Shown here: positions 11,291 to 63,604 of the stretch, piece after piece
Layout of the letters: every line of letters starts with the position of its first letter
Position numbering within the stretch: position 1 is the stretch's first letter
Assembly (NCBI GenBank): GCA_032622095.1
Contig: CP136067.1
Location: 134,915,990 to 134,979,989 of the forward strand
Source of the DNA: Siphonodentalium dalli
Taxonomy: Eukaryota; Mollusca; Scaphopoda; Gadilida; Siphonodentaliidae
Direction of reading: 5' to 3'
DNA length: 64,000 bases
Notes under the pieces: model-generated
What the model was told of the DNA's origin: nothing
The model's database searches: none
Seen by the model: the letters and a program-made list of their open reading frames with translations, nothing else
Made by a program: the position numbers and the translations under genes

Positions 11291-11527
11291 TTAACCCTTT
11301 GAGTGCCAGGTCCGATTTTTGTATCAATCCATATACCCTGTGCCAATGCATTCTCTTATATATGCGAGTCGACCATAGGTCGCCTCGCATATATAAGAGA
11401 ATGCATTGGCATACCAATTGTTTTGTTGTTTTTTTTACAATTTTAATATATTTTATTATATTCTTTAACAGACTTATTGTGTAGGTTTAGGGCTGATTAG
11501 ATCGGCCCCTGGCACTCAAAGGGTTAA
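11291..11527. mobile_element. piggyBac-type MITE, family B, copy 1
   Basis: Flanked by TTAA (11291-11294 and 11524-11527) with terminal inverted repeats CCCTTTGAGTGCCAGG / CCTGGCACTCAAAGGG. TTAA target duplication plus CCC-starting termini is the piggyBac signature. It contains one 69-bp hairpin (11342-11410). It lies just upstream of the LINE ORF1. If one TTAA copy and the element are removed, the short reading frame starting at 11251 runs across the junction, so it probably inserted into the LINE. The other copy is at 63361-63604. Confidence 0.85.
11342..11410. repeat. 69-bp hairpin module (in B1)
   Basis: Outer arms of 27 bp start GCCAATGCATTCTC and end TATATGCGAG. The inner part TCGACCATAGGTCGC can pair CGACC with GGTCG around ATA. 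All hairpin modules in the window share this plan. Confidence 0.95.
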
Positions 11528-11548
11528 TGCTATTTTTTTTCAGAACAA

Positions 11549-12646
11549 ATGTTGCCAAAACCTGATGCGTTGCAGATGTTCAATAAGAGAAGTGCGTGGG
11601 GATGGGGAATTTCCTGTGAGTGTTGCTACAATTCCTGCGTAGTTGAAAAGAGTGCTTCTTCTGGTCAAGTGCAAAATTCAGTGGCCAGGATAACGGCTGA
11701 ACGCGTTCAACCTATTTCGAGTGCGGTGGATAACATGTGTGTAACTGATCCCGATAATACAGAGAAATACATCGCGGTACCTGCAGTTGAAGTACACACT
11801 CGTTTCACTCCGTTGGATGACTCTATGAAGAAAACGACTCAGCAAAATGTACATTCGAAAAATGCGATAAATCTGACATCAAATTCTCAACGAATGTCAC
11901 AAAGAGTCAACCCCAGAAAAGTGCATCTGATCGTTGGCGACTCAGTCTTGCGTTACCTGGATCCGAAAAAAATGTCCCGAGGTGATTATGTCAAGAAAGT
12001 TTCGATAGGAGGATTGAGATTGGAAGGCGTGTTGGAATGGTTTGAGTCATCGGATGTCATCGAGAATGTGTACAAGGTTACAATACATGTCGGTATAAAT
12101 TCTTGTCGGCATGGAATGGAAACAGACGAGCAGTTATTTACAGGTGTGATATATAAGATCCGAGAATTGTATCCGCAAGCGCTCATCAGATTCTCTTCAG
12201 TACTACCGACACCTAGTCGAGCTGGTGCGAATAAAGTCATTTATTCTACTAATGAATTATATCGACGCCTATGTTCATGGATGGGGTGTCAGTTCATCGA
12301 TCATGCGCCCAGTTTTTCAGAGCGCAGTGGTTTCGTCCCACGTAGATATTTTTATGACAACTGGCATCCAAGTGATCTTGGAATAGAGATTTTGGTGAAT
12401 GAAATAAAAGTTGGCGTCATGGACGTACAATCTGAGCCGTACCGAGAATCTTCAGAAGCACAAAACAGTGAAATCAGACCCAGGGTAAGAATGAACAGAA
12501 GTGAAAGTTCAAGATCTAATGAACAGTTTCCAAAAGAAGTGCATCGTGCACGTTTTGTTGATAATGTGGGAGCGATGAATGTGAATGACATTTCAGGATT
12601 GCGTGCAATACTCGCAAGTGCTCTTAAAATAACTGGTAATGTTTAA
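11549..12646 (+). CDS. LINE ORF1 protein with SGNH hydrolase (esterase) domain
   Basis: This 365-residue frame is ORF1 of the LINE. The N-terminal 115 residues are polar with a Cys cluster (CECCYNSC, residues 23-30). Residues 124-290 match an SGNH/GDSL hydrolase: nucleophile block VGDSVL (Ser132), glycine block IGG (153-155), VGIN (181-184, Asn of block III) and the Asp-His pair in YDNWHPSD (Asp270, His273). The triad Ser-Asp-His is therefore intact, so the domain could fold and hydrolyse esters. Known relatives are the ORF1 esterases of CR1/L2-type LINEs, where the role is thought to be lipid or RNP related. The start at 11549 is the first ATG of the open frame; the real N terminus may lie upstream and be displaced by the family B MITE. 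ORF2 follows 334 bp downstream. Confidence 0.85.
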   Translation: MLPKPDALQMFNKRSAWGWGISCECCYNSCVVEKSASSGQVQNSVARITAERVQPISSAVDNMCVTDPDNTEKYIAVPAVEVHTRFTPLDDSMKKTTQQNVHSKNAINLTSNSQRMSQRVNPRKVHLIVGDSVLRYLDPKKMSRGDYVKKVSIGGLRLEGVLEWFESSDVIENVYKVTIHVGINSCRHGMETDEQLFTGVIYKIRELYPQALIRFSSVLPTPSRAGANKVIYSTNELYRRLCSWMGCQFIDHAPSFSERSGFVPRRYFYDNWHPSDLGIEILVNEIKVGVMDVQSEPYRESSEAQNSEIRPRVRMNRSESSRSNEQFPKEVHRARFVDNVGAMNVNDISGLRAILASALKITGNV

Positions 12647-12980
12647 TTATTTCAAATCGTAATTGATGATGAGTATCATGAGAGCACATGTATAAGTATA
12701 TGTATAGGTATATATGTAGTATGTGCCTGTGTATGTACGGGTATGTATGTGTATATGCATATGTGTATATATATATATATGTATGTTGTATGTACATGTA
12801 CATGTATGTGTATGTATATGTATGTATGCATATATGTGCATCTTAATTATCTATTTTCTTTGCATGTACAGGAAGTTCTTGCATTTGAGTGATTGAAAAG
12901 TTATAGATAGTACAATTTGAATATATACCCTTCCTGCATGGTTTCATTTTGACTTCGGTGGTGCAAGTTTTATTCATATT
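12647..12980 (+). repeat. Inter-ORF spacer with GTAT/TATG microsatellite
   Basis: About 12690-12840 is an imperfect (GTAT)n and (ATGT)n tract, followed by AT-rich DNA up to the ORF2 start. The open frame on its reverse strand is low complexity. Confidence 0.8.
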
Positions 12981-15900
12981 ATGTCTGAGCGGAATTTTTC
13001 AACTGAAATTACGTCGAATAAAGCTACATTTACATTGTGGAATGTTCAAGGAATTAAATTAGATGACAACAGTTTCCTCGAAAAGTTGATAAAGTATGAT
13101 TTTATTGCTTTGGTAGAAACAAGGCATAAAGAAAGTTCGGATATTCATATTCCGGGTTATAAATGCATAGATTTCCCTAGACTTGACGGTGATAGAGGTG
13201 GAATAGTATTTTATTATCGCAATCAATACGCAAGATTTTTCGTAAATTCTAAAAGAATAAGTGAGTTTACCATTTCCGTCGAATTCAAGGGAAATATGTT
13301 TAATATTTCTAACAAAATTGCTTTCATAGCCAATTATATCCCCCCTGCCAACTCCAGTTATTGGGATACAAGAAGTGATATGAAGACAAATGTGTTTTCG
13401 CAAATTCAGAATCATTTACTACAGTATCAAACATGTGATCTTATAATTATGGCAGGTGACTTTAATGCTCGGACGGGAATTAAACCGGATCATGTTGTTG
13501 GAGAAAATGATCGCAGTAATCACCATATACCAGTACCTGATGATTATATATTAGATACAAGCAAAATAAGGACTAGTATGGACTCGAATGTTAACAGTTT
13601 TGGTAACCAGTTATTGGCCGTCTGTAGTAATACAAGCATGAGAATTGTTAACGGGCGTACATTGGGTGATGCCTTAGGCCATTTCACTAGTTACCAATAT
13701 AATGGTGCTAGTGTCGTTGATTATGTTATAATATCGGAAATGTATTTGTCCGATATCGATTATTTTTGTGTTAAAATACCTACCAAACATTCAGATCATT
13801 GTCAGCTAACGGCTCATTTTAATTATTATACAACGCAGGGCAGAACAAAACATGCGTTTATTCAGACAAAATGTAGATTGAAATGGACTATGAACAGCAA
13901 AGAAATAGCACTGGATCACATTCAGAAGCCGGAATTTCAGAATAAACTCGAACGATATAAATTAATGACTTACAAAAACGATCGCGTTGGTACCCTTGCG
14001 ATATTGGATGACTTTATGTCAATGGTTAATCATATAAATTATGTATCGTGTACTCATATTTCAAATCGTAGAAGAAAAAATAAAAGGAAAAGAAAGTGGT
14101 TTGACGAAAGGTGTAAGACATTAAAGTTAGATCTGAAGAACGCGATTCATAACATGAGACAAAATCCATTCAATAACTCTCTTAGAGTTAAGTTTTTCGT
14201 CACTAAAAAAGCCTATAAACGGGAACTGAAACTGAAACGAAAAACATTTTATCAAGATTTATACAATAAACTGGAAAATATGGAATCTAATGATCCAAAA
14301 ACATATTGGGATATTATCGGGGAAATGCGCATCAAACCTAATCATTCACATGATTTAGATCCTGATAGAGCAGTTGACTTCTTCGCTGAATTATATTCTA
14401 CAAATAATATACCACCAGTCAAGAGAAATATTATGTTGAACCAGATTAATGTTGATACTCAAATGTATAACACAAATATTACTTCTACCGAAATTTTGGC
14501 GGCAATCAGTGAACTTAAACTTGGTAAAGCCGAGGGACCGGACAATATCAATAACGGGCTTCTGAAAATAATTGGTCCACACATTGTGTTTGAAATTAAA
14601 AAACTTTTCAATCAGATATTATCATCCGGGCATTATCCAGATAGTTGGAGTAAATCTGTTCTTAGTTTAATATACAAGAAAGGTGACCGTAACGACCCTA
14701 ATAACTATAGGGCTATTGCGGTCAGTTCTGCCATTGGTAAGTTATTTAATAAAGTTATTAATCAAAGAATGAATAAATATCTGGAAGTGAACAATATTAT
14801 AAGCGACGACCAATTTGGATTTTGTAAAGGGAAGCGCACAACCGACAGCGGTTTTATTCTTAAAACAATCATAGATAAATACAGGATTTCTAAAAAACCT
14901 TTATATATATCATTTGTTGATTTTAGAAAGGCTTTTGACTCATGATAAAACTTAAATCTATAGGCATTTCAGGTAGGATTTATGACATAATCCAATCAAT
15001 GTATGATTCAAGTTTTTATAGCGCAAAAACGAGCAAAGGGATTGGGCCATCGCGTTTGTCGCATGTTGGTGTTCGCCAGGGCTTGATTATATCGCCTAAT
15101 TTATTCAAGATTTTTATAGATGATATCAAGTATGTTTTTGAGAAGACCTGTGATCCAGTTAATGTGGGAGACTCAAAGCTCAATCATTTATTATTTGCCG
15201 ATGATCTTGTTTTAATCTCAAGCACTCAAACTGGTCTTCAGTCTTGTCTAAATAACTTAGACTCATATACGCTCAATAATGGGTTAAGCATTAACGTTGA
15301 AAAAACAAAATGCATGATATTAGGATCTAATTGCCAAGCAGGATCTCCTAGATTCTCGATAGGAAATGAAATTGTTGATGTAGTTAATGAGTTTCCATAT
15401 TTAGGAATTAAGTTTTCTTCTAACGGCAAATTTTCAAGTGCTCAAAATGAGTTATCATCTAAAGGTAGGACAACATTTTATTCGCTTACTAATCGCTTCA
15501 ACGCAACAGCTATTGTAAGAAAATTTTAGGTGTTGGTGATGGTGCAACTAATCACGCTGTACGCGCTGAACTTGGTAGGTATCCTTGTTATATTGATGTC
15601 ATATGCAGAATGGCTAGTTATGCACTTAAGTTGACCTCACATACTCGAAATGACCTTTTATACAATGCTATTTGTGAACAAAGAGCGCGGAAAAGTATGT
15701 CAACGTCAATATTTAGAATACTAGAGGCATATGGCCTTGATTTAGATCCCGGCATAGATTTATCAAACAACAAATTTAATGTAATTGTCGGTAAACTTAA
15801 GCAAAGATTACGAAATGAACACGTCGCCGAATTTATCAAATCGATCTTCGATGACAACAAGAAAAGTGGTGAAAATAAATTACGAACTTATAGGCTTTTT

Positions 15901-16296
15901 AAAGATAACTATTCTATGGAGAAATATCTTATTGGAACAAAATGTGTGGAAGATAGAATGCGTTTTACAAGGCTAAGGATTAGTAACCACAATTTATCCA
16001 TTGAAAAAGGTCGACATTTCAAACCGAAGAAGAAATCCATTGAAGATCGAATATGTTTACATTGTCCGATCAAACAGAAACTAGTTGAAGATGAATTTCA
16101 TTTTATAATGAAATGTCCGATATATGCTGATTTGAGAAATGAACTATATGAAGTAATGAAAGTGCAATATAATGGATTTAGCGCTATGTCAGAAACTCGG
16201 CAATTCAATTTGATTCTCAAAAATGAAAAACCAGATTCTTGTTACAAAATATGCAACTTGATTAGAAAATGTTTTGATCGAAGATCCCAGCAGTAG
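12981..16296 (+). pseudogene. LINE ORF2: APE endonuclease and reverse transcriptase, two breaks
   Basis: Frame 1 (12981-14945, 654 codons) carries the APE endonuclease: Asn21 in WNVQG, Glu46 in VETRH, GDFNAR (159-164), DYVI (247-250) and the SDH motif (271-273). It then carries the start of the RT (LGKAEGPDNI, IYKKGD, YRAIAV, DDQFGF, FVDFRKAFDS). A small deletion at about 14941 shifts the frame. Frame 2 (14942-15529) continues with RQGLIISP, the catalytic LFADD and a thumb region. A second break near 15517 removes what is probably a sizeable piece, because KILGVGDGATNHAVRAELGR follows at once. Frame 3 (to 16296) ends with a CxxC...HxxxxC motif (CLHCP ... HFIMKCP). Catalytic residues survive but no single frame spans the protein. 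Confidence 0.9.
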
Positions 16297-16571
16297 CAAC
16301 TATATGTAGAGTAATATTCAACCAAACTGCATGGTTGCATCCTATACATGTATATACATGTATATAAGGTAGTTTTCATTTTAAAGTATTAAGAGGCACT
16401 TATATATATATTATATTGTATATGAAATACTAAATAACTAATTATATATGCAATGAAATAACTACATCACTTGTTGTATATTACTTGTTGTATTTATTTA
16501 ATATTGTTATTGTGTGCATACTGCCTTACATGGTGTTTTATGCTAATAAATGTTATGTTATGTTATGTTAT
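16297..16571 (+). other. LINE 3' UTR and (TGTTA)n tail
   Basis: AT-rich tail with AATAAA (16545-16550) leading directly into four TGTTA repeats. Short tandem tails of this kind are typical of CR1/L2-like elements. Confidence 0.8.
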
Positions 16572-17650: not shown

Positions 17651-17869
17651 TATTATGTAAACATTACTGTTACAGTGACAGCAATTTTGTCTACAAACAA
17701 TCGAGCATAGTTTGTTATCATATCAAGAATGTGTACATTATAAAGAATCAGAGCAGTGAAAAATATTCCAGAAAACACATAATTTAAACTCAAACATTTT
17801 ATTGCAATTGCAAGTGGCGATGTTTGTTGATAATATGATTGCATGGTATGTATCAGTAATGTTTACATA
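17651..17869. mobile_element. Possible MITE with TTATGTAAACATTACTG ends
   Basis: TTATGTAAACATTACTG (from about 17652) is repeated inverted at about 17851-17868, bounding a 220-bp AT-rich core. A related 'gtttacataac' and 'ctgttacagtg' arrangement occurs at 35494-35690. Superfamily unknown. Confidence 0.45.
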
Positions 17870-18384
17870 ACAGTGGTATCAACGTGCGAAATATCATCAT
17901 TGGAGAGATATCAATAATATATATAAAACAAAGTCAATCTATTTTCCCATGTTCATCTTATTGATGTTGGTTTTACAAACCTTTTTGTGTTGGTGTAAAC
18001 ATATTTTTATTTCCAAATCCAAACAGATAGCATAATATACAGATCACACATGTAAGCATAATAGAAGTGTTAATATATGGAAACGAGGATCAGACAACAA
18101 GCCCGAGGTCTTATATGAAGTCTTCTCCTCTTTGGCGACATGACCCGTCCCCAATAAGTGAGGGAGGGGTATAGTTCAGAAGGGAAGTGTTGGAAATAAA
18201 GGTTTTCGGAGAATTGGAGATAAATAACATAATTTGAGTTAGGGATGGAAAAGAGGGAAAAGAATGTGTTAGGGATAGCAGGAGACGGAGAGAGAAAAGA
18301 TAGATAGAGAGAGATGGGGAGGAGAAAATAGTCGTAAGATGATTACAGTGGTTGGTTATTTTCAATGACTGTGTTGTTGCGCGA
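17870..18384. repeat. Dispersed repeat copy and purine-rich tract
   Basis: 17991-18075 ('gtaaacatatttttatttcc', 'aaatccaaacagatag') is repeated at about 30088-30165. 18240-18340 is purine-rich (GA/GATA). No gene was seen. Confidence 0.6.
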
Positions 18385-38740: not shown

Positions 38741-39597
38741 TTCAAGTATGTAGCTTGGTAAAAATCCACCTTGAAATTGCCAACTGTACACTACTAATCA
38801 CCCCCCCCCCCCCTCCTCCAGCTCAACAAGTCCCCTCCCGACCGGGATCCAGACTCCCAAGTCTTAGGTTGGAATTTCACAACCGACACCTCAAACTTTC
38901 TCAATTGTTGGAAATTTCCAATCTCACAAGCGCCTTTTTCTAAAACCATTTAAACATGTTTGAAGCCCAATTATCCATGGACCCAAAACACAATACATAT
39001 ATGTCAGACCAATCAGTCAGGTGGTTCCAAGGTAGATGTTTTAATGAATTTGGTATTTCGATGATTTTATTAGACACAAAAGTGTTAACTCCCCATAGCC
39101 TGCCATTTCTTGACAGGTTGACCTCATTTTAACAAATCTGAATCTCAGTCACTAAAGGATCCTCATGATTCCTCCATACTATATGTAAGCTAAATAGTCC
39201 AAACTCTCTTGAGAAGACATTTTAAGAATTACTATAGAGACATATAGTTATGTCCCTGGTCCCACCCTATTTAACCTGGTGACCCCATCTGAATAAATTT
39301 GAATCCCAGACACCAAAGAACCCTTCATACATATCATAAATATCAGTCAAATAGACCTGATGGTCCTTGTGAAGGAAGCATATTAAGAGGGAAACTGTCC
39401 TTCGCTTGGCCCCTATTTGACCAGGTGACCCCATTAAAAAAAATCTGAATTGCAGTCAAGGAAGAACATTCCATTCTATATAAGCCAACTAGTTCTTGCA
39501 AACATATTTTAAGAATTACTATGTAGTGAAATAGTTAAGTCTCTTGCTCGGCCCTTATTTGACTTTGTGATCCCATTTTCACAAATCTGATAAGGAT
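38741..39597. repeat. Degenerate 'gaccccatttgaacaaatct' array, part 1
   Basis: Units of about 160 bp with 'tatgtccctggtcccaccc', 'ctggtgaccccatctgaata' and 'ccatactatatgtaagctaa'. A C14 run lies at 38798-38812. The array continues at 40.9-42.6 kb. Confidence 0.6.
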
Positions 39598-40500
39598 AAA
39601 AATTAAGTTCCCCAGTTGAAGTTGATGATATTCACCCATTGGGCACCTCATTTATGAATTTTATCTTCTGCAAATTAGGGGATATAGAAACTTCCTAGAA
39701 TGGAAATTTAACTAACAACAATGTAAATTTGATACTATAGATACTTCCCCAGAAGATGAGGCCTAAGCAGAATGAGGTCGCCAGAGGGTGAATTTGGTGA
39801 TGCTAGCCTGCTGTGCGGGATAGCATCACAAAAAGCGTGTCTGTTCCTACATTGTGCATGCCTGGCCTCAAGCAACACAATGTATTATACTACAAGCCTT
39901 GAAATAGTGTGTCTGTCATTTGCAGAATGAGGTCCCCAGAGGGTGAATATAGTGACGCTAAATTCACCCTCTGGGGACCTCATTCTGATAAGGCCCTCAA
40001 CTGCTATGGAAGACCTAGAATAAAATTGAATTTCCCCAGTTGAAGTTGGTGATGTTCACCCATTGGGCCCCTCAATTATGAATTTTATCTTCTGCAAATT
40101 AGGGGATATAGAAACTTCCTAGAAGGGAAATTTAACTAACAACAATGTAAATTTGATACTATAGATACTTCCCAGAAGATGAGGCCTAAGCAGAATGAGG
40201 TCTCCAAATGGTGAATTTGGTGATGCTAGCCCGCTGTGTGGGATAGCATCACTAAAAGCATGTCTGTTCCTACATTGTGCATGTCTGGCCTCAAGCAACA
40301 CACTGTATTATACAATCAAGCCTTGAGATAGTCTGTCTGTTATTTGCAGAATGAGGTCCCCAGAGGGTGAATTTAGTGACGCTATCCTGCACAGCGGGCT
40401 AGTATCACTAAATTCACCCTCTGGGGACCTCATTCTGATAAGGCCCTCAACTGCTATGGAAGACCTAGAATAAGATTGAAGTTCCCCAGTTGAAATTGGT
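39598..40500. repeat. 425-bp tandem duplication of hairpin repeat G
   Basis: Two copies (39598-40019, 40020-40500) of a unit contain 'ccccagttgaagttggtgat', 'ttatcttctgcaaattaggg' and a terminal hairpin. In copy 2 the hairpin (40348-40437) has 33-bp arms CAGAATGAGGTCCCCAGAGG...TTTAGTGA around a GC-rich loop. In copy 1 the loop is deleted (39925-39989). Related copies are at 47.64-48.08 kb and 57.70-58.11 kb. Confidence 0.75.
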
Positions 40501-41760
40501 GATGTTCACCCATTGGGCACCTCAATCTACAAATGCCAGACACTCTTGGAGAAAATGAAATGAATCTGATTTTAATGACCACCAAGTGATAATGTAAACA
40601 ACAAGGGTGCTTCATTGGTAACACCATTAATCTCATTTAAATTATGAATGACATGAATACACTCCCTGGGGACTCTGCCTATAGCTCTCTTATCTCTCTA
40701 TCTGCCCTGCCATGTGTCATGTCTGTCAGTTCATGTTTTTTAATTTATTTAAATAAAAAAGTACATTATTTACCTGTGAGTTAGGAGGTGAGATAGAGTG
40801 GAATGCTGTTGGTTGGGGACAGGGTGGGGTTCTGGGTCATGTGTGGGGGGGGGGTGATAAAAAATTTTTGTATGTTAAATTGATCAAGGAGTTCCTGAAT
40901 TTTTTATTATTTTTTGGGGAATTATGGCCATAACTCTGTTAAAATATATCGGATCAAACCCATATTTTAACTTGATCTGTATATAAGTGTCAAAAATTAA
41001 TATACCAAATTTGGTGTTGATCAGATGAAAAATGTTTGAGTAATCCTGTCTTGGATGAATTCTATATCAAAACAAGAGTGGAAGGGGTTAAATAAACAAT
41101 ACCAAAATCCATACAGATGAAGAACATGCTAAGAAAAATCTAGGTAAGAAATATGAGACTGTGATGTGTCCTAAACAAAAATTAAAGGTCAAAACGCAAA
41201 AATTAAATTTTTTGTTTTCAACGTTATGTCCCTAGCTCTGCCCCTATTTGACCCAGTGACCCCATTTGAACAAATCTGAACACCAGTCACCCAAGGTCCC
41301 TCTGTACCAAATATAAGCTAAATCGGCCAAATATTTTTTTAGAAGAAGTCATTGTAAGAATTACTATGAGTTATGGCCCTGGTTTCTCAACTAATTGACC
41401 GGGTGACCTCATTTGAACAAATCTGAACACCAGTCACCCAAGGACCCTCCATACCAAATATTAGCTAAATCGGCACAATGGTTATGGACAAGAAGTTGTT
41501 GTAAGAATTACGATGGAGGAATAGAGTTATGGCCCTGGTTTCGCAACTATTTGACCCAGCGACCTCATCTGAATGAGAGTCACCTAGGGAACATCCACAC
41601 CAAATATGAACCAATTCGGTATGATGGTTTCAGAGGAGAAGAGGTTTTAAAAAAAAAGTTGACGGACTGACGGACAGACGGACGGCTAGACAGACGGGCG
41701 GACGACGGACGAGGAGTGATGACTATAGCTCCACCGGAGACTTCGTCTCAGGTGAGCTAA
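40501..41760 (+). repeat. Degenerate 160-bp array with Helitron-like 3' end
   Basis: Repeated 'gagttatggccctggtttc', 'gacctcatttgaacaaatct' and 'ccataccaaatattagctaa'. It ends with (GACG)n, then hairpin GGAGACTTCGTCTC, seven bases, then CTAA (41757-41760). This hairpin-CTRR end suggests that a Helitron-like element carries the array. Confidence 0.55.
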
Positions 41761-44306: not shown

Positions 44307-44706
44307 TTAACCCTTTACCCAACAGAACGGCTCTGTGCCAATGCATTCTCTTATATATGCGAGTCGACCATAGTTCGCCTCGCATATATAAGAGAATACA
44401 TTGGCTTAACACATTAAAAATTATAAAATTGTTAAAGAATGTAAGAAAAAATGGTAAAAAGTGTTAAATTTTTTTTTTTTTTAGGCCAATGCATTCTCTT
44501 ATATATGCGAGGCGACCTATGGTCGACTCGCATATATAAGAGAATGCATTGGCACAGGGCATAACTGTAACTATCACAATGTGGTCAAGGAGCCGGTTCC
44601 AATGATACCCATATGTGTATGGTTCTATTGAGACAGACCGAAGATATTTTAGGCTGTTGAAGCTTTATTTGGCCGGTTTTGGCCGGTTTGTTGGGTAAAG
44701 GGTTAA
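44307..44706 (-). mobile_element. piggyBac-type MITE, family A, copy 1
   Basis: TTAA on both sides, termini CCCTTTACCCAACA / TGTTGGGTAAAGGG, 400 bp including both TTAA. Two 69-bp hairpins (44337-44405, 44485-44553) flank an AT-rich linker. The asymmetric part ('ggctgttgaagctttatttg') is on the right, so this copy is inverted relative to the other four. Confidence 0.9.
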
Positions 44707-47635: not shown

Positions 47636-48085
47636 GAGAAAACCATGCAACTATCAAGCCTGGAAATAGTGTCTGTCATTTGCACAATGAGGTCCCCAGA
47701 GGGTGAATTTAGTGATGCTATCCCATCACTAAATTTGCCCTCTGGGAACCTAGTTCTGCTTAGGCATTATCTTCTGGGAAGTATCTACTTCTCAAATTAA
47801 CATTGTTTTTGGATACTTTTTTCCTTCTGTTCAGGTTCTATATCCCCTAATTTGCAGAAGATAAATTGCATAATTAAGGTAACTGATGGGTGAACATCAC
47901 TAACTTCAACTCGGGAACTTCAATCTTATCCTAGGTCTCCCATAGCAGTAGAGGCCTAATCAGAATAAGGTTCCCAGATAGTGAATTTGGTGATGCTAGC
48001 CCACCGTGCGGAATAACGTCACTAAATTCACCCTCTGGGGACCTCATTCTGCAAATAACAGACACACTATATATAGGCTTGGCAA
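47636..48085. repeat. Repeat G, copy near 48 kb
   Basis: Inverted 'aatgaggtccccagagggtg' / 'caccctctggggacctcatt' boxes near 47688 and 48019 enclose 'ctatatcccctaatttgcag'. Same family as 39.6-40.5 kb and 57.7-58.1 kb. Confidence 0.7.
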
Positions 48086-48535: not shown

Positions 48536-48935
48536 TTAACCCTTTACCCAACAAAACGGCCAAAACCGGCCAAATAAAGCTTCAACAGCCTAAAATATCT
48601 TCGGTCTGTCTCAATAGAACCATACAAATATGGATATCATTGGAACCGGCTCATTGACCACATTGTGATGGTTACAGTTATGCCCTGTGCCAATGCATTC
48701 TCTTATATATGCGAGTCGACCATAGGTCGCCTCACATATATAAGAGAATGCATTGGCCTAAAAAAAATCTTTTTTTAACACTTTTTACCATTTTTTCTTA
48801 CATTCTTTAACAATTTTATAATTTTTAATGTGTTAAGCCAATGCATTCTCTTATATATGCGCGGCGACCTATGGTCGACTCGCATATATAAGAGAATGCA
48901 TTGGCACAGGGCCCTTCTGTTGGGTAAAGGGTTAA
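48536..48935 (+). mobile_element. piggyBac-type MITE, family A, copy 2
   Basis: TTAA at both ends, termini CCCTTTACCCAACA and TGTTGGGTAAAGGG, hairpins at 48689-48757 and 48837-48905. The 150-bp left part ('cttcaacagcctaaaatatc') is family-specific. It lies just downstream of the last Rab exon. Confidence 0.9.
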
Positions 48936-49884: not shown

Positions 49885-52800
49885 CTGAAAAAAGAGCTTG
49901 ATAACATTACTACATATGTAGTTCATAGAGAGAACACAATGTGCATCTTAATCGAGAATCTTTAATCGAATGACTTGCGGATGGCACAAGGATATATTTC
50001 ACGAGATTTGATGCAAGATGTGTTCTGTATTTAATCTACACCGTTGTATCAGATAAGTTCAATCCACGCTTTAACCCTTTACCCAACAAACCGGCCAAAA
50101 CCGGCCAAATAAAGCTTCAACAGCCTAAAATATCTTCGGTCTGTCTCAATAAAACCATACACATATGGATATCATTGGAAACGGCTCCTTGACCACATTG
50201 TGATAGTTACAGTTAGCCCTGTGCCAATGCATTCTCTTATATATGCGAGTCGACCATAGGTCGCCTCGCATATATAAGAGAATGCATTGGCCTAAAAAAA
50301 ATCTTTTTTTTAACACTTTTTACCATTTTTTCTTACATTCTTTAACAATTTTATAATTTTTAATATGTTAAGCCAATGCATTCTCTTATATATGCGAGGC
50401 GACCTATGGTCGACTCGCATATATAAGAGAATGCATTGGCACAGGGCCCTTCTGTTGGGTAAAGGGTTAACCTTCATTGATACTATAGCTATACATTTAT
50501 TGTGATTTATGTCTGATGAATAACCAGTAACGATTGGGGCATCACCTGCAGCAGTTCGTTGACGTAATGTACATCATCTTTCTTGGAACAACTTCAACAA
50601 AAATAGTTTGGGTTTGTATTCCACTAGAGGTTAACACTAATATGTATTCAATGGCTGGGATTCCGGTGTATACATGTGCATCACGTCAATGGATGTGGAA
50701 TAAAATACATTAGGGACCAGCATATTCATACAGATATTACAGGGTATGTTTTTTTTTAAATTTATTTCATTCCTATGTGTGATTATATCTTGATTTCTTG
50801 AGTGATTATAAATGATAATTTCACTGGTGAATTATGTCACTTTAAAGTGATGTGAAACACTCTGGTGGGGTGATCAAATAGAATTTTAGAATAATCTTGC
50901 TCAAAGTAGTTATTTTTACAAATATTAATCCAAATTGACAACACATGGAGCCATTTCATATATTAATTAAATGCAATGACTTTGGATGGCGAAAACAATT
51001 GTGTTAGTTTATCGCTAAAAGTTGCGTCCCTAATCGGGATGTAAATATTTACAATTTGGCGTAGTTCAGACGGTGATATCTGTGGAGTGGTATGGTCGAT
51101 TTCTTTGAATTTTTCAGCGACGTTAGTAGTATGCTACATTCCCCAGGTTGCCGATTTCAACAATTTCAACAATATTTGGTGTATGAGTCTCCTGCAACAA
51201 TATCTCAGACGAGTTCAAAAACCAGGTTTGTCCGAAAAAAAATTTGCAGAGTTATGGGTCTTAGTTTGTCTATTTTTAGCAATGTTATCACCGTTAGCGC
51301 GATAACTCAATGAAATATTAACCGATTTAAACAATATGTGGTATATGAGTCTATTGCAACAATATCTCGGACGAGTTCGAAAACCTGGTTTGTCCGAAAA
51401 AAAAATCGGGAGTTATGGGTCTTAGTTTGTCTATTTTAATCACAATTTTATCGATAACTCAATGAAATATTAACGGATTCAATTGATATTTGGTATATAG
51501 GTCTATTGCAATAATATACCACCGTCCAACTTTTTTTCCCGGAGTTGTGCACCTTATTGGCAGAAGTTTGGTTCGACTGCCAAAAAACTCGACAAAAGCA
51601 TCTTAGATGCGTACCCCTTGTTATACACCTGTTTTTAAAGTGATGTGAAAAATTGTGATAAAATAGAAATTGAGAATAATCTTGCTCAAGGTATATACAA
51701 TAGTTATTATTACGAATATTAATCCAAACTCAAAACACACACCGCCATTCATTTATATTAATTAAATGCAATGATTCTTGGTGGCGAAATCATTTGCATT
51801 TCTTCATCGCCGATAGTTGCGTCCCGAATCGAGAAGTAAATATTTACAATTGAGCGTAGTTCAGACGATGTTTTCTATGGAGTGGTATGGTCGATTTCTT
51901 TGAGATTTTCGGCGATGTTAGTAGAATACTACATTCTCCAGGTTAGCATAGCGCATGAGTATTAACTTATCAATTTCACGCGCCCCAACGAGTCTATAAT
52001 ATGTCTTTAATTTGCGCTGTATGTATTCATACATGCTATCGATATAATTATGCATCATGGGTATAATGGCGGTATTATTCGGAATTCTGGTAAATCAGAT
52101 GTTTATAGTGGAATATAATAAACAGAATAATCACTTGATTGAACTGGTGGTGGAAAATAAGTCATTCGAGGCAGGGACTATTTTGTAAAACACTTGAGCA
52201 CAATCATGTTTGTACAATGTCTCTACCTCTCGTGAATTATTTGACGTCACCAGTTCAATCAAGTGATTATTCTCTATATAACGCCCCTGTCTCTCATGAA
52301 TTATTTGACGTCACCAGTTCAATCAAGTGATTACTCTCCACATAATCACTTGAGTTCTCATTTTGTTTCCGAATTCTGATGAAATAGGTTGCTAATATCA
52401 ATAACAGAAAATATAACTGTATAGCGGCCGGTGTATATATGGAAAGGGAAGGTGGGGATTTATTTGTAATTTCACAAAGTTTAACCTTTCTGTACTAAAT
52501 ACGCATTGATGATTAGTTTACTTAGGAAATGTTCAGATAATAAGCTCAACAAAAAACAACAGGTCATTTGTTGAACTTATTATCTGAACATTCCCCCAAC
52601 AATGAAAATGTACACAGCCTTCAAATTAGGAAAAATGTCCCACCGCAAATTAAATGCTGTGGCATTAAAGATTCTACATGTTGCCATCACAATTTCCCAC
52701 GGCATTGCTTATTGCCTTGGCCAATTTTGATGGACTGATTAATATGAATCATTCTGCTCTTGTATTATCTTTTTTCTGTCTGTTGTCTGGTTTTATTTCA

Positions 52801-55800
52801 TGAACATCCCTCCAAATGAATAATAGGCAATTCCAATGTAGGCATTATGACTGAATGGGAGAATCCATTTAGTATAGAAAGGGTTAATATGACCATAGGC
52901 TAGTGTAATTAACGAACCACAGATAATAAACCATAAGCTAGGATATATCTGTGCCTTTTTTAATCTTATAAAAATAACTTCACAGAAGCGTATTCCCATC
53001 AAATAAGATTCACTCAGGCCTTATATCGTGATGTGTTTATGATTAATTTGACTCCAGACATGCACAAGGGTTCATTGAAAGAGTTGGTCCAATAGCTAGC
53101 AATTTTGTGTATAAATTAGGTCAATCAAACATCAGGTCATGTCAGAAATCAGAGGTTCACAAACAAACAAACAAACTACGAGCTCTCAACTCAGACTTAA
53201 AACCTAATTTTTTTTTTAAAAAGCCGTCCCTTTTGTACAAATTATTATAGAATATAAACTCCCAACATCAAACTGGAAGTATTCAAAAATCAAGACTGTT
53301 GGTTGTTGCCAAGAGGGGAGTATTTTACTGAAATTAACCATTATATTACTGACGCTGTGTACTATACGAAGAAGCTTGTCGATTTAAGAAATGTCATCAT
53401 GTCGATTTCAACGAAACTCGACGAGCAACATCATCATGTAGCTTTCACCATCGACTGAATTCGCGATAACGTGAAAGTATCTTCTGCTTTGTTTATAAGT
53501 GTGTGTTCCCTTTCGATTCATGAAAATGGAAGGATATCTAAGGATTGTCAGATTCACGTATGTACTATGTAATATTAGGATAATTTAAACGCGATATAAT
53601 AACGTTTGCATGAATCACCGAATTTCGACTCCAGTATCGCCCAGAGTGATTAAGATTTTCTCATTGCACGCGTGATTTATATTTTAGGCCACTCTAATGC
53701 AAATATTTGAAAGTCCTTATTATGTCATAATTATGTTCTCAATAAAATGTAAACCGTGGCTACGAATGAACTTCACTGTGCATAATTTCGACAGTAACTC
53801 CCCTTATTTTGGAACGCCGGCCATTGAAAGACGCGCACGTTTATTTTTCCGATTACGACATTAACGCTTTAAGCCCACCGATCTACTGTGCGACAAAAGT
53901 GGTCGCAAAAATTCAAAATACGATCGTCGTATTAGATAATAATTGGTGACGTCACAAAATCAGATATAGTCTATATACGACCCAAAGCGTCCGGCTTTGG
54001 TTCGTTATAATAGTCTTCAAGGATGTGAAGTGTCGGTGTCCATGACTTCCCCCACCCTGAAAAAAATGTGGGAACTATAGAAATGAGCAGTGTCCATCTG
54101 CACAAATGTTTTATTGTCTAGACAATAACTTAATTTATATTTGACAAAATTTTCCACATTAGGTCTACAGTTGCGAAAATCTGGTGTCAAGATCAAATTT
54201 GAGACATCTTTAAATGTAAATAAATAAATAAACTTACAATGTTAGAGCTTTGATGGATTCCTCAATATTCTGACCAGACTTGGCACTGGTTTCGAAAAAC
54301 AATGCATCATATTCCTGAAATAAAGAGAATAACAACATTGGGGATATTCCAGTGTAATTTTGGAAACTATACTGGGTCAAGGTGTATCAACTTATCAAAT
54401 TTGTATGCATAATTACAAATGTGAAGCAAACACTACTTAACAATTACAGTTTAAACAGTTAATCCAGTTAACATGTGCAGTTTATAAACAGCATGCCTCC
54501 AAGCCATGAGGCCAAATATTGATAACTAAGTAATTAGTGGGGGTTAAATTCGGAAATAAATTGTTGTTAATTTTCCACACTAAAAAAGTGTTACATTTTC
54601 CATTGAATATGCACTTCTTCAATGAAAAATCCAACCAAAGTGGTATTTATAGCAGTCCGACTGGTAATGTTATACAGGGTGTTTACACTGTGCAAATTAT
54701 TTATCATATCAAAGAAAGAGCATTATTCCTTACTACTTTATCTCAGAGAAATTAATACCAAACAAGTATTTTTGAGTAGCAAACGTCACACACCTTAGCG
54801 AATGTTGCTCTGGCACCCCATGTTATCACTCATCTGAGCGATAGTTGCTCTGTCACCCCATGTTATCACCCACCTTTGCGAGTGTTGCTCCATCACCCCA
54901 TGTTATCACTCACCTTAGCAAGTGTTGATCAATCACCCCATGTTATCACTCACCTGAGCGAGCATTGCTCAGTCACCCCATGTTATCACTCATCTTAGCG
55001 AGCGTTGCTCTGTCACCCATCTTATCACTCACCTTAGCTAGCATTGCTCCATCACACCATGTGATTTATCACTCACCTTAGCGAGCGTTACTTCGTCACC
55101 CTGTGTTATCACTCACCTCAGCGAGCATTGCTCTGTCACACCATGTTAACACTCACCTGAGTGAGCATTGCTCTGTCACCCCATGTTATCACTCATCTTA
55201 GCGAGCGTTGCTTGGTCACACCATGTTATCACTCACCTCAGCGAGCGTTACTGTCACCCCGTGTTATTACTCACCTCAGCGAGTGTTGCTCCGTCGCCCC
55301 ATCTTATCGCTCGACAGTCATCAGTGTCTGTCATATCAGTTTTATTTCCCAAAACCATAAAAACTACATCATCTTCCGTACCTTCCTGAAGACAGAAATT
55401 ATTATGTGCTAAGTTCTTGTATAATTTTATGTTTTTAGAATTGTGTGCCAATTTAAAGACATATTATGTACTTGTTTGGGTGCGTGAAACTGATAAGTTA
55501 GTATTAGGCACTATGACAACTGGAGGAATGTAACATTCTACTTACATCGCCGATAATTTGAAGCAATTCGACCCTACCACTCCATAGAAAACATTGTCAG
55601 AACTACGCTCAATTGTAAATATTTACTACTCGATTCGGGACGCATCTATCAGCGATAAACTAACAAAAACGATTTCGCCATTGAGAGTCACTCCATTTAA
55701 TTCATATCAATTTGGATATAATATTTGTAAAAATTACTACTTTGAACAAGATTATTCTCAGAGTCCATTTCTATTTGATCACTTTACCAGAGTGTTTCAC

Positions 55801-58800
55801 ATCACTTTAAGATTTCTGCAAACAATTATCAAACCGAATATACATCTGCAATTTTTTAATTTAACAAGTATCTAAAATAAGGATTTTTTAAACGGCATGT
55901 ACCATTAAGAATACCTCAGACCGTTGTATCAGTTGAATTGTGTTCATAGTGAATTAATATTTTTTGCAATATTTTGACAGTTTTCAATACAAAGAGAAGT
56001 AGCATTTGATCAGAATATTATAGCAGTGTGCAATCAGAAAGATAGAATATATGTTACACGTAGAATACACCCATAGTAGCTGAGAGTACAAAACGTTCAC
56101 CAAGAGTGGAATTGTGGTTTTAACATTGAGCCTTTGGGCAAGCTGTTTAAAACCACAATACCATTGTGAAATTTTTTACTCTCGGCTACTATGGGTGCAT
56201 TTTATTTATGCCATAATAATTATTTTTCATTTGTTCTGCGAATTCAACTATTCCCCTGTTCACGTTTAATGTGTATCCTCACCGAGTGAGCCAAACATGA
56301 TGTTATAAGGAATGGGTGTCATGCGTAGTAATGCATACTTTTATTTCATGACATCAGCCTGTTTCTAGGCCAACAGATCAGATCAGATCACATGATATTG
56401 TCATTCATGTGTTTCCTAGTTCATATAACGCTAGCAAGCTAAGTTTGATTGAAATGCAGGCAATTTTTCACATGCTTAATTGATATCATAACAACTTCCA
56501 ATTTTAAATGAATGTAACAGAAGAACTATTTTGCAAACTACGATGTAGTACTACATTTACAGCCACAGTAGAAATTTATACCAATAGTAGGGTGTAAAGA
56601 TGAATTTTATAAAATAGATGTTACACTCACACCATCGTAGACAATTATGGTATAAAATATATCTAAATGTGATACAATCGGATGAGATATAAGCGTTTTT
56701 GCATCAAATTAAAATACCGGTATAACATTTTGGACAGTACAGGCAGATGTTCAAATAACTGCAGAAGATAGTGAGTGAAGTTTCAAGAAAGAGATAAAAT
56801 ATAGAAATAGACTGAACTACCACACCCTTCAATGTATAGAGAATACCTACAGTTTTTGTTTGAATACCAAAATATCTCATGAGTGTCTGGAAAGAAATAT
56901 CAAACTTGTAGTCGTGAGTGAAAATTTTATATTTCTTTCCAGCCACGAATGAGATGTTTCAGGTATTCAAAAAAAACAATGTAGGTATTCCTTTTATTAT
57001 ATGCGGCTTATTTGGGCTCCAAGTTGCTAATTTAAGTCTTAATTAATTAAATAATTAACTGTACTTAATTAAAGAGTGCGCATGTCAGTGTTTACAAACA
57101 GAAAAGAGCCTATGCATAGTTGAAATAGACATGCTGCGACTCAAACATAGAATTATCGATTGATCACATGCCGTCATAAATTCATTGCTTTTGATTGGCT
57201 AGTGGACAGTGTGCAAAACAATGATCACTCAATCAACCTTGGCAGCTCGTGTTAATTTCAAGCCTACAGTGAAATAACGGAACACAATTTCACTGTAGCT
57301 CCGAAGACATAAATTCGATGAATTACGTTTTGGTGATCTTCAGCTACAGTAATGCTCTAATTAATCGAATTCTTAACCAAAGCAGAATTATGGGCAACTT
57401 TTCAGGATTTAGTCGGACATATGGCTTGTTGCCATTCATCGGAAAGCTCTCCCCGAGAGCTTTCCGATGAATGGCAACAAGCCATATTTCCGACTAAATC
57501 CTGAAAAGTTACCCATAATTCTGCTTTGGTTAAGAGGTCGATTAATTAGAGCATTACTGTATTTTATAGGCAAGCATATAATAAATGAATCTATTACAAT
57601 AACCATATCCAATTACATGTTTCTCCTTCATTTCACTCAGAAAATCAATTACGGCAGAGACAAAGCATCAAGTCAATCCTCTCCAAGAAAACACCATACA
57701 ACCTTCAAGCCTGCAAATAGTGTGTCTGTCATTGGCAGAATGAGGTCCCCAGAGGGTGAATTTAGTGATGCTATCCCACACAGTGGGGGACCCCATTCTG
57801 CTTAGGCCTCATTTTCTGGGAAGTATCTATAGTCTCAAATTAACATTGGTTTAGATACTTTTTTCTTTCTGGAAAGTTTCTATATCCCCAAATTTGCAGA
57901 AGATAAAATATTAGAGGTGACTAATGGGTGAACATCACCAACTTCAACTGGGGAACTTCAATCTGATCATAGGTCTCCCATAGCAGTTGAGGACTAAGCA
58001 GAAAGAGGTTCCCAGAGGGGTAAATTTGGCGACACCAGCCCTCCTTGTGGGATAACATCACTAAATTCACCCTCTGGGGACCTCATTCCGCAAATCACAG
58101 ACTCACTATTTGCAGACTTGATGACCTCGCTTGGATTTTCCCATTCAATTTTAAAAGTAAGTGGTCTATCCTTCTTTGGTAGGAATGTTCAAAAGGCAGA
58201 TAAACCCCAAATGGATTTACAGTAATGCCCTTAAATAATCGACTCCTTAACCACAGCAGAATTATGGGTCATTTTTCAGGATTTAGTCAGAAATATGGCT
58301 TGTTGCCATTCATCGGAAAGCTCTCACTGAGCAACAAGCCATATTTCCAACTAAATCCTGAAAAATTACCCTTAATTCTGCTGTGGTTAAGGAGTCAATT
58401 ATTTAGGGCATTATTTTATAGGGTGGTTCAGGTTATAATCCCTAAAAAAAATAGTTCTGGATAGCGTCACTAAATTCACCATCTGGTGACCTCATTCGGC
58501 AACGAGAGATACACCATCTCAATTGGAATCATACATAATCAGTCTTATATTTTGAATATCATTTTCAGGTGTTTATCATAGGGGACAAGTGACATGGTTT
58601 TGTCTCTGCCAGCAACTTGACTGATGTGTTGGACTGATGGAGATGAAGGAAGCCCAGTCTAATCTGCTATATATATATAGCAGCTAGCTACACATTAAAT
58701 CCTGTCACCTGGGACAATCATATAAAACCAGTTTCTATAAAAGCCGACAGTAATCTTACGTCTCTGGAAGTCCAAAGAAAACCATGTGCAATGCATTGTA

Positions 58801-61800
58801 ATATAAATGCGAGTCTGCCATAGGGAGCCTCACATATATAAGAGAATACATTGGCCTAACAATATTTACATTGACCTTTTAAGCCAATGCATTCTCTTAT
58901 ATATGGGAGTCTATGTGGGAGCCTCTCATATATAAGAGAATACATTGGCCTAACAATATTTATGTTGACCTTTTAAGCCAATGCATTCTCTTATATATGC
59001 AAGGCTCCCTATGGCAACTCGCATATATAAGAGAATGCACTGGCACATGATCTTCAATGCTGCACCAGCGCAGCTCCCATCATGAAAGGGTTAATTTTGC
59101 TATAACTGGAATCCTTGAACAATTGGTTCTGTGTTAAACCATGTCTCATTTCAATGGTTGGTGAATCTTCGAATCCCCAAATGGATTTATTTATAGGGTT
59201 TCCACGGTGTGACTGACTTTGTAATATTGATACAAGCAATTAGCTTTATGATGGACTGTATTTGATTTTTGGAATCGTAGGTTCATTTTTTGTCGAAAAG
59301 GGGCATTAATCTGATTGGACACAATTTCAAACTTGACCAGAACTTCAATTGTCATATGTCGACCATATTCAAGATATTCTTCGGCTGAGGCATACCAAAA
59401 AATGACGGCCAATGCTCATCGTCTCTAGTTTTGGGTACCAGATAAATGAGCAGTGTCCGTCCCATGTGGGAAAAGAAGAGTTGACATGTATTACTGACTG
59501 CAAAGTATCTGTTCTTCACAATCTATAAATATATCATTAACTTCAAGTTATTATCAGTTGTTGATATTTAGTACTTGTATATTATTATAGTATATATGTC
59601 GTCGTTTTAATAATTACTGCGATTCATACTTCTTTTTACCACATGATAGTGTCAGACCATACATGTACTCCATACTTAGAAAAGATTTGTTACTCCATCT
59701 TGGAAACTCCTCTTCCTTTTCAGATATGGGATTTGCCTCGGACTTCTAGAGACGTTAACTTTAAATATTATTGTTGGCTTTTTAATCCTTCCATGATGGG
59801 AAAATTTTGCGAAAACCCTGTACCAATGCATTCTCTTATATATGCAAGTCTCACATAGGGAGCTTCACAAATATAAGAGAATACATTGGCAATATTTACC
59901 TTGACCTTGCAAGCCAGTGCATTATCTTAACCCTTTACCCAACAAACCGGCCAAATAAAGCTTCAACAGCCTAAAATATCTTCGGTCTGTCTCAATAGAA
60001 CCATACAAATATGGATATCATTGGAACCGGCTCCTTGACCACATTGTGATAGTTACAGTTATGCCCTGTGCCAATGCATTCTCTTATATATGCGAGTCGA
60101 CCATAGCACGCCTCGCATATATAAGAGAATGCATTGGCCTAAAAAAAATCTTTTTTAACACTTTTTACCATTTTTTCTTACATTCTTTAACAATTTTATA
60201 ATTTTTAATGTGTTAAGCCAATGCATTCTCTTATATATGCGAGGCGACCTATGGTCGACTCGCATATATAAGAGAATGCATTGGCGCATGGCCCTTCTGT
60301 TGGGTAAAGGGTTAAATATGCAAGGCTCCCTATGGGACTCACATATATTATAGAATGCACTGGCACAAAATCTTTAATGCTGCACCAGCGCAGCTCCCAC
60401 CATGAGAGGATTAAAGAAACTGATATAAACATACCAGGTTGAATCTCAATACACTGGTTTTCCTGTTCTGCAATGAGAAGGATTCTCGATCTTCTTCTAG
60501 TCATGACATTTCTGATTTTATTCAACACCCAATGATACTAACACTACATGTCTATCAAAAAACACATTTTAATGCACAACGTATCAAATACAAAACAGCC
60601 TCATTTCACCCAACACAGCAGGCCTTTTTATTAGCGAAAAAGCATGCATATCACTGACATTCATGTTTCCACCATGTTAATCTGGTTCGCGGGCGAAACT
60701 GGGCATTTCGCCACGACCAACAGTAGCTATGTCTATTGAATATGAATTTTCTCAAAATCGCGGAGACGTACGTACGTCACCGCGAATCCAATGTCGACGA
60801 TTTTAAGTGGACCTATCATCATATTGAATGACATGAGGTTGTTTCGTCTTTGATGTATTGTATGGAACACTTTCCACACTTAATTGTGTCTATACTTCAT
60901 CACATGCAACAAAATCGTCATTAATTCCTTATGTGTAGATTTGAATGTAAAATGAAAAGACTGTTTTATGCCAAATTGTTTTTTCTATCTCAATATCACA
61001 TTGCAAAGTTGTGTTCACAAAATACGGTCTGTTGCGCTGTGTCACATGGAGAACCAACCATTCATTGATTGAAGTTCTGCCGAGTGAAAGCTTATAGAAT
61101 GTACATGTACATAGTTGTTTCTCAGATTATTTCCTATTTGTTAAAGATGGTCTATCTTTTCCGGGCCATAATTACAACAACATTATTTATATAAAACCCA
61201 ATTTAGAAACTACAATTAAAGAGGCATAATCTGACATTTTGCCTTGGAGGAAAGTGCTAACAAGACAAGAGTTATTCCGCTTGCAATGCAGAAACGCTCA
61301 GAGATTATCAAGCGGGAGAACTCTATCTGAGATCGCCTGAAGTTTCATGGCCGAATTGTTCTAAAAATAGCCCATAAAAATGTCCCAATGGATTGTATGT
61401 AAATATTATACCAATTTATCTGAATAAAATTTGAAATAAAATCTATATTAATTGATAGAAACGTTTCTGGACAGCGGTCTTCAATTCATATTTACAGTAA
61501 TGCCCTAAATAATGGACTCATTAAGCACAACAGAATTATGGGTAACTTTTCATGATTTAGTCGGAAATATGGCTTGTTGCCATTCATCGGAAAGCTCTCA
61601 GTGAGAGCTTTCCGATGAATGGCAACAAGCCATATTTGCGACTAAATCCTGAAAAGTTCCCATAATTCTGCTGTGGTTAAGGGAGTCGATTATTTAGGGA
61701 ATTACTGTATTTATACCCAGGAAACTATATAACACTCAAATTGTTATAGGAAGAGATACCATCTTTAATTGCTAATGCCAAAGAAAAACATATTTCTGAT

Positions 61801-62277: not shown

Positions 62278-62864
62278 CTGAAATGAAAGTACATTCCATC
62301 AGCTTTCCTGATGCAGGCATGGCATTTTTAGTGAATTTAAGAGAGCTGCATGCTAACCGTTTGAGAAGTGCATGTCTTGCATGCCATTTAGTAGATATCA
62401 TTCATCTGTTATTAGGCACAACATGAATTCATCTATTTTATCGCTATATGGTTATGGTTTTATTGAGATTCTGCCGGTGATTTACGACCCACCCCAACAA
62501 TCGGGGTAAAAAAACAAGTGGAATGACTGAGTCAATTATACATCAAGATAAAAAACAATTCATATCACTTGAAATATGGCTCCACTGGTGCAAAAGAATC
62601 ATCAAAAGTTCCGAAAGAGTTACTGTTGAGTTCTTGATATTATACCAGAACTTGAAACACATGGACTGATTGGCCACACACACTGAGGTATACCGATGCT
62701 TTCCAGAGAAGCCAGTCACACTGTAGAACGAATGCATTGAGTTAAAAAGTTTGTGCACGTAAGTATGCACACATCGTAACCACATTTTGAACACTGCATG
62801 TCCCGACTCCACGGCCTCTTCATAAACATACGTTGACTGGAATGTCCAATTTGGATTTACATAT
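62278..62864. other. Rab intron upstream of exon A
   Basis: An 89-codon minus-strand frame (62812-62543) has no recognisable domain. No upstream Rab exon (P-loop or WDTAGQE) was found here or to the window end. Confidence 0.4.
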
Positions 62865-63243
62865 TTAACCCTTTACCCAACAAACCGGCCAAATAAATCT
62901 TCAACAGCCTAAAATATCTTCGGTCTGTCTCAATAGAACCATAAAATATGGATATCATTGGAACCGGCTCCTTGACCACATTGTGATAGTTACAGTTATG
63001 CCCTGTGCCAATGCATTCTCTTATATATGCGAGTCGACCATAGGTCGCCTCGCATATATAAGAGAATGCATTGGCCTAAAAAATATCTTTTTTTAACACT
63101 TTTTCTTACATTCTTTAACAATTTTATAATTTTTAATGTGTTAAGCCAATGCATTCTCTTATATATGCGAGGCGACCTATGGTCGACTCGCATATATAAG
63201 AGAATGCATTGGCACAGGGCCGTTCTGTTGGGTAAAGGGTTAA
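62865..63243 (+). mobile_element. piggyBac-type MITE, family A, copy 5
   Basis: 379 bp with TTAA ends, termini CCCTTTACCCAACA / TGTTGGGTAAAGGG, hairpins at 63007-63075 and 63145-63213. It carries a small linker deletion relative to copies 2 and 3. Confidence 0.9.
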
Positions 63244-63360
63244 TACCAAATTACATCAGAAAACACATTCCTACAGATAGGAACAAGCCCACTCAGGTAA
63301 GTAGTCACACATCTCCATGAGCTATCCCTCAACTGCACCAGTTGCCACATATAGAACAGT

Positions 63361-63604
63361 TTAACCCTTTGAGTGCCAGGTCAATTTTTGTATCAACCCA
63401 TATACCCTGTGCCAATGCATTCTCTTATATATGCGAGTCGACCATAGGTCGCCTCGCATATATAAGAGAATGCATTGGCCTAACAATTTTTTTTTTTTTT
63501 TATAAATTTTTTACAATTTTAATAATTTATTCTTATATTCTTTAACAGACTTATTTTGTATGTTTAGGGCCGATAAGATCGGCCCCTGGCACTCAAAGGG
63601 TTAA
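63361..63604 (+). mobile_element. piggyBac-type MITE, family B, copy 2
   Basis: TTAA ends with CCCTTTGAGTGCCAGG / CCTGGCACTCAAAGGG and one hairpin (63411-63479). Near-identical to the copy at 11291-11527, 52 kb away. Confidence 0.9.

Follow-up and report, generated by a model that had tools for sequence, protein, structure and literature searches.

Why should miniature inverted-repeat transposable elements (MITEs) with different ends carry one and the same palindrome in their interior? The question is raised by a stretch of 64,000 nucleotides (hereafter the window; G000:C7:134915990-134979989 in our numbering) from the genome of the scaphopod mollusc Siphonodentalium dalli (2,226,750,531 bases, or 2.23 Gb, in 9 contigs), in which 17 copies of one 69-nt hairpin are distributed over nine elements between positions 11291 and 63604. 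A first-pass annotation made from the letters alone had reported this count and the near-perfect 27-bp arms, and our analysis confirms both. Genome-wide, the hairpin belongs to a cassette that recurs in four or more non-autonomous MITE families, which between them show two types of target-site duplication, and its pairing has been kept between these families while most of the surrounding sequence changed.

Each hairpin is composed of 27-bp arms, a T·C mismatch, five further pairs and a 3-nt loop of the sequence ATA. The commonest copy has a predicted fold of -54.3 kcal/mol, and a BLAST search of the window with the hairpin (E 1e-3) returned the same 17 places and nothing further. The carriers are five elements of family A with two hairpins each in inverted orientation, two elements of family B with one hairpin each, and two elements of family C, of which C1 has three hairpins and C2 has two (Table 1). 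In C1, a 94-bp tandem duplication comprising hairpin and spacer (58823-58999) goes with the three hairpins. A elements measure 379-400 nt including their TTAA flanks, the two B elements 237 and 244 nt. TTAA is present on both sides of 5/5 A elements, 2/2 B elements and C2, and on the right side only of C1, the left end of which is uncertain. With their short CCCTTT... inverted repeats and no transposase gene, all three families match piggyBac-type MITEs. The first-pass annotation had assigned them three different termini: The families are indeed distinct, while the C tip, CCCTTTCATGATGGGAG, is one C longer than stated and all three tips share TTAACCCTTT, the only part that they have in common. 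In C2, divergence has turned the left tip into TCCTTCC. An additional TTAACCCTTT terminus (TTAACCCTTTCTATACTAAATGG) ends at 52887 without a hairpin and has a possible partner near 52480, the inversion of which is unchecked. Short family-specific palindromes beside the tips are notable only at the right end of B (equalled in 3/200 shuffles for B2 and 22/200 for B1). A5 was inserted at a TTAA that belongs to the second C2 hairpin and is therefore the younger of the two elements; because of this nesting, and because the C hairpins in our sample are less identical to the A/B hairpin, C is apparently the older family.

Genome-wide, an exact 14-mer of the hairpin arm occurs 337,586 times (168,925 forward, 168,661 reverse; 0 and 0 for the reversed-pattern control), which implies at least about 1.7e5 hairpins, assuming two arms per hairpin and arms only in hairpins. 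BLAST located 38 complete or incomplete hairpin loci in 9 of 25 10-kb stretches that were taken systematically at round coordinates, i.e., non-randomly; scaled to the genome, this corresponds to about 3.4e5 hairpins with a wide error. Sorted by eye according to their flanks, these loci comprise 8 of A, 2 of B, 17 of C and 11 of a further family, D, with three loci that have no tips (L016:4650, L030:6643 and L030:6932) being assigned from inner or subterminal sequence. A genome-wide listing of the terminal families that carry the hairpin, which the first-pass annotation had proposed as a check, thereby recovers A, B and C and adds a fourth family. TTAACCC followed 15-45 nt further on by CCCTGTGCCAATGCATTC was counted 63,392 times (31,894 + 31,498; control 0), and the approximately 100 such ends inspected at the beginning of contig C1, tandem copies included, look like A, B or C by eye. 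At G000:C1:819972-920840, B ends repeat every ~11.17-11.41 kb in a single orientation, as if a long tandem array carried a copy of B along.

Family D, the tips of which are absent from the 64-kb window, ends in TGTGACCCGCCATATCAAATCCAGTCG(T/G)AAGTCGGGATTTTTTTTACCCTGT followed by the hairpin, and its tips (TGTGACCCGCC...) are unlike those of A, B and C. Exact D-type ends occur 13,421 times in the genome (6,722 + 6,699; reversed-pattern control 0). From 16 noted pairs with both ends listed, we took 15 full elements, which yield a consensus of 459 nt whose two hairpins both correspond exactly to the A/B consensus. ATA precedes and TAT follows the element in 14 of these 15 cases, and ATT and TTT in the remaining one; likewise, all 4 D elements for which the sampled stretches include the two tips are flanked by TA on either side. 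As the flanks are TA, the duplicated site is TA and not TTAA. This target site points to a Tc1/mariner-like transposase, with the superfamily being a lead only, and the cassette seems to span two transposase superfamilies. Two hairpins at L030:6643-7000 have D subterminal sequence without D tips and could be a truncated D element or a fifth end type.

The unit common to A, B and C is longer than the hairpin alone: It reads CCCTGT-hairpin-YTAA and comprises about 80 bp, with single copies deviating from this pattern, e.g., by an inner ATAC in B1. A, C and D carry one such cassette inside each end, B carries one in all. The outer boundary is sharp, as the outer flanks in six contexts (A-left, A-right, B, C-left, C-right and D) are unlike one another up to CCCTGT. 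Toward the inside, A and B additionally have an AT-rich spacer in common (score 60 versus 36.7, standard deviation (SD) 5.6, with 0/500 shuffles reaching this score). These spacers are homologous, yet they differ by 21-26% where the hairpin is identical: Hairpin and spacer differences are 0/69 and 16/75 for A3 and B2 (p 1.5e-5), and 0/69 and 18/68 for A3 and B1 (p 9e-7). At the right ends, A and C reach a score of 20 versus 9.9 (0/500 shuffles) and B and C a score of 20 versus 13.1 (9/500 shuffles), a similarity that we read as the ten-base tip TTAACCCTTT alone. The module as a TTAA element in its own right was considered, given that CCCTGT...ACAGGG resembles a piggyBac tip, and was rejected because TTAA directly precedes it only 327 times genome-wide, compared with 63,392 and 13,421 occurrences of the other ends.

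A, B and D agree in their hairpin consensus at 69/69 nt, regardless of whether it is derived from the left (9 copies) or right (9) hairpins of A, from B (4), or from the left (6) or right (3) hairpins of D; the individual copies depart from it at 3/621, 7/621, 0/276, 6/414 and 4/207 positions, respectively. The C consensus (15 copies: 9 left, 6 right) differs from that of A/B/D at positions 30, 31, 39 and 40 only, and these four differences constitute two fully compensated pairs, G-C for T-A and A-T for C-G, a pattern with a chance of about 6e-5 by a simple count. The C-right consensus contains a third compensated pair, G-C for A-T at 5/65, which is complete in 4/6 copies and G-U-like in 2. 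In an alignment of 29 copies, of which 24 are distinct, 94.8% of the cells are paired. In the 24 distinct rows, double-sided changes amount to 21 cells versus 7.6 (SD 2.1) upon shuffling, with 0/500 shuffles as high, and sliding the partners by 1-3 columns leaves 0-13 double-change cells. Beyond mere pairing, the outer stems of C and A/B/D have the same consensus sequence, and the T·C mismatch is retained in every family consensus, being paired in one of the 29 copies (D3). The earlier suggestion that the module is either exchanged between families or kept for a purpose gains strength from these compensated changes and from the identical module in D.

Among copies that have already been inserted, the picture is a different one. 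Changes in the A copies affect 6/690 hairpin positions versus 12/885 elsewhere when the poly-A part of the spacer is excluded (p 0.48), and 6/690 versus 19/1005 when it is included (p 0.10). For C1 and C2, the values are 14/133 versus 10/72 (p 0.50), or 17/135 versus 10/72 (p 0.83) with the other left hairpin of C1, and for the D copies 34/1983 versus 91/4575 (p 0.49). B1 and B2 differ at 0/69 hairpin positions versus 14/167 others with the AT spacer (p 0.012) and 0/69 versus 6/115 without it (p 0.085). Pooling A, B and C results in an odds ratio of 0.57 (p 0.08) or 0.64 (p 0.15), and pooling all four families in one of 0.76 (p 0.12); the ratios lean toward slightly fewer changes in the hairpin and stay below significance. 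The first-pass statement that the hairpins stay more alike than their surroundings holds between families, as in A3 and B2, and is unproven within them, as in A. Since the decay of inserted hairpins is not distinguishable from that of the remaining element, any constraint on the hairpin seems to act on those elements that go on to spread.

Taken together, we consider the chances evenly balanced that the hairpin is a structure-constrained, transposase-independent cassette of single origin, which is passed between MITE families and helps propagation. According to this reading, each family would depend, for its cut-and-paste movement, on a trans-acting transposase that recognises the family's own tips. 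The cassette would have arisen once and would have obtained new tips by template switching or recombination, with breakpoints at CCCTGT or farther out; the repair of excision gaps would be one occasion for this. Propagating lineages would retain the pairing and the outer-stem sequence, with the cassette aiding propagation in a structure-dependent and transposase-independent manner, which is the least certain step. Our best guess is that the folded nucleic acid would be the acting species, either as a hairpin extruded at replication or gap repair, or as double-stranded RNA. In a bolder version, which we put forward as a tentative possibility, the hairpin would be a hyperparasitic selfish cassette, itself not a transposon, that is handed between MITE families of different superfamilies and has reached ~10^5 copies with a propagation advantage based on its fold.

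Several points weigh against a constrained and exchanged cassette. Inserted copies exhibit no significant extra conservation of the hairpin in A, C, D or the pooled set. Position 62 in C-left is A in 4/9 copies (4 G, 1 gap) and thus mostly breaks its pair. The number of double-change pairs (5), as opposed to cells, is unexceptional, given that 64/500 shuffles reach 5 and sliding by -1 also gives 5, and the shuffle control takes no account of relatedness among the copies. Moreover, template-directed correction of the palindrome can generate compensated changes without selection. Finally, we found neither a donor nor an intermediate element of such an exchange in the sequence read, which comprises the window, eight 3-kb loci, the 25 10-kb stretches and the 15 chosen D elements.

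The main rival, which we judge unlikely, takes up two of these points: The hairpin would be a functionless passenger, with ectopic gene conversion between families and arm-to-arm correction of the quasi-palindrome yielding its likeness and its compensated changes. Compensated swaps are the expected product of arm-to-arm copying, donors are everywhere (>100,000 copies), the hairpins of B1 and B2 are identical although their flanks differ, and the missing protection of inserted hairpins conforms with the absence of a function. However, correction should erase the T·C mismatch, which is kept in all consensuses, and the identical outer-stem sequence of the C and A/B/D consensus is not predicted. 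Private changes, moreover, are shared with the partner hairpin in 0/3 of those A elements in the window that have any (A1, A2 and A5); on the same grounds, we rejected conversion from one hairpin to the other within an A element.

A function in small-RNA or double-stranded RNA pathways is, in our estimation, improbable. Transcripts would fold into hairpins of 27-33 bp, or a stem of ~80 bp in A, and would feed or block silencing. Such a role would be transposase-independent and thus compatible with D, and it would agree both with the pairing retained through compensated changes and with the long stem predicted for an A element (-202.6 kcal/mol). The same kind of support could be seen in 31 sub-threshold Rfam matches of one A element, mostly to microRNA models, since scores below the gathering score are usual for long hairpins. 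Rfam matches at the gathering score, by which we judged both a known RNA family and a microRNA precursor, are nevertheless absent from the window (0 in each case), and a known RNA family was rejected accordingly. Furthermore, the loop measures only 3 nt, and the sequence identity of the outer stems exceeds what pairing requires.

We assign a very low probability to the proposal, also made in the first-pass annotation, that the palindrome binds a transposase, being a dimeric site of the piggyBac C-terminal domain in the manner of the 19-bp palindromes of piggyBac. The piggyBac ends bear identical, asymmetrically placed palindromes that are bound by two C-terminal domains, as stated in the available part of the structural literature (PMC11707139), and the hairpins of A are likewise asymmetric, those of A3 lying 148 and 26 nt from its two tips. 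The proposal is weakened by exactly this variation, as the distance between hairpin and tip also differs between families, and by the existence of two kinds of tip and target-site duplication, with D having TA flanks and unrelated tips. In addition, the autonomous piggyBac with the same subterminal hairpin that the first-pass annotation had envisaged did not appear: The genome contains at least 128 matches to the piggyBac transposase (PF13843; 116 of 649 candidates scored), many of them in open frames of 500-700 aa, and at the three loci read of these 128 neither the hairpin nor the tips of A, B or C are present. One of the piggyBac loci (L050) has a single candidate tip, TTAACCCTTTATCTGC, the partner of which was not found at the locus. 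Several of the piggyBac open frames are equal in length and score (e.g., 584, 593 and 606 aa), which suggests that piggyBac transposases have recently been active in this genome; examples of genes with open frames lie at C3:134062619-134063773 and C1:161101192-161102313. In 14 control genomes, no piggyBac transposase match was obtained. The hairpin patterns had 0 matches in viral contigs and 0 in prokaryote genome contigs, and a reading frame spanning an A element has no protein relative.

Least credible of all is a single ancestral element whose ends diverged gradually around the hairpin as its slowest part, a case that the first-pass annotation had named as refuting and that applies in part to A and B with their common cassette and spacer, and agrees with the TTAACCCTTT common to A, B and C, but hardly gives the D tips, since gradual drift from TTAACCCTTT to these tips and to TA flanks is impossible while staying mobile and the outer flanks of A, B, C and D switch abruptly at CCCTGT.

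How does a cassette of this kind relate to known systems? The closest are the CMITEs of the coral Acropora, piggyBac-type MITE families that are flanked by TTAA and end in CCCTTT-like tips, by which it is already known that a shared core can lie under different piggyBac-type ends (PMC2872659, in the part available). The first-pass annotation, which knew of no described family with such an arrangement, had overlooked them. In both cases, families with different terminal inverted repeats share an interior that is more conserved than these repeats. The CMITEs, however, are ~100 bp long, have one 75-bp core and an estimated ~1600 copies, and the available text describes them as related to piggyBac only (PMC2872659), whereas the elements studied here measure 237-400 nt in A/B and 459 nt in D, contain a palindromic cassette, two of them in each of A, C and D, include a TA-flanked family and are far more numerous. 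In a blastn comparison limited to the window, the published CMITE 60-mer had no counterpart (best E 1.3), and homology was rejected for that stretch. In the accessible portion of their report, the CMITE authors proposed that the core aids transposition and may permit cross-mobilisation, while leaving its origin and role open (PMC2872659).

The nearest case of a module that crosses kinds of element is the V domain of short interspersed nuclear elements (SINEs), which is found inside MER6, a Tc1/mariner MITE, and likewise occurs in elements with unrelated ends; the part of that paper at hand does not call it a hairpin, and the elements that it connects are one MITE and a lineage of SINEs (PMC6887750). 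Palindromes just inside the ends are also known from piggyBac and piggyBat, being asymmetric in piggyBac, but according to the portion available these are 19-bp sites of one transposase, in contrast to a 69-nt hairpin under two tip types (PMC11707139). Internal regions are also known to matter in mPing and Stowaway MITEs, where enhancers or inhibitors alter the transposition rate, with no promoting internal sequence common to mPing and mPong being reported in the text available (PMC9921582). A published report of the hairpin was not found, and the V domain in MER6 was the only MITE core across superfamilies found, in a literature search without most subscription journals and Repbase. The work on the CMITEs did not settle why some MITE families become so numerous or what importance, if any, their interiors have (PMC2872659, as far as the available part goes). 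One cassette under several tips and two types of target-site duplication makes it possible to separate an interior that serves the transposase from an interior that serves propagation in another way.

Table 1. Elements carrying the 69-nt hairpin, and related features, in window coordinates.
Feature	Position	Strand	Details
B1, family B MITE	11291..11527	+	TTAA flanks; tips CCCTTTGAGTGCCAGG; hairpin 11342-11410
A1, family A MITE	44307..44706	-	TTAA flanks; tips CCCTTTACCCAACA; hairpins 44337-44405, 44485-44553, inverted
A2, family A	48536..48935	+	hairpins 48689-48757, 48837-48905
A3, family A	50071..50470	+	hairpins 50223-50291, 50372-50440
Cassette type copy	50217..50295	+	CCCTGT 50217-50222, hairpin 50223-50291, inner CTAA
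C1, family C	58695..59094	+	right tip TTAACCCTTTCATGATGGGAG; hairpins 58788-58855, 58883-58949, 58977-59044
C1 left end	near 58695	+	diverged TTAA end, judged by eye; uncertain
C2, family C	59782..60414	+	hairpin 59822-59890; second hairpin 59913-60364, split by A5
A5, family A, inside second hairpin of C2	59927..60315	+	hairpins 60070-60138, 60217-60285
A6, family A	62865..63243	+	hairpins 63007-63075, 63145-63213
B2, family B	63361..63604	+	hairpin 63411-63479

Other repeats accompany these elements in the window. Directly behind B1, a long interspersed nuclear element (LINE) at 11528-16296 contains an open frame with a GDSL-lipase domain, followed by an endonuclease and a reverse transcriptase in several frames; its 48 relatives have 21-34% identity, and those named are a hemichordate, a ctenophore, two molluscs and one bacterial bin. 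Another MITE, which is almost fully palindromic, is present at 57345-57561, 58218-58413 and 61493-61709 with arms of up to 107 nt that are 96% complementary, and its ends read TA-CAGTAATGC... in the first copy, by eye. Members of a second repeat family, in which GAATGAGGTCCCCAGAGGGTGAATTTAGTGA recurs internally in inverted copies, lie at 39593-40526, 47636-48081 and 57687-58122.

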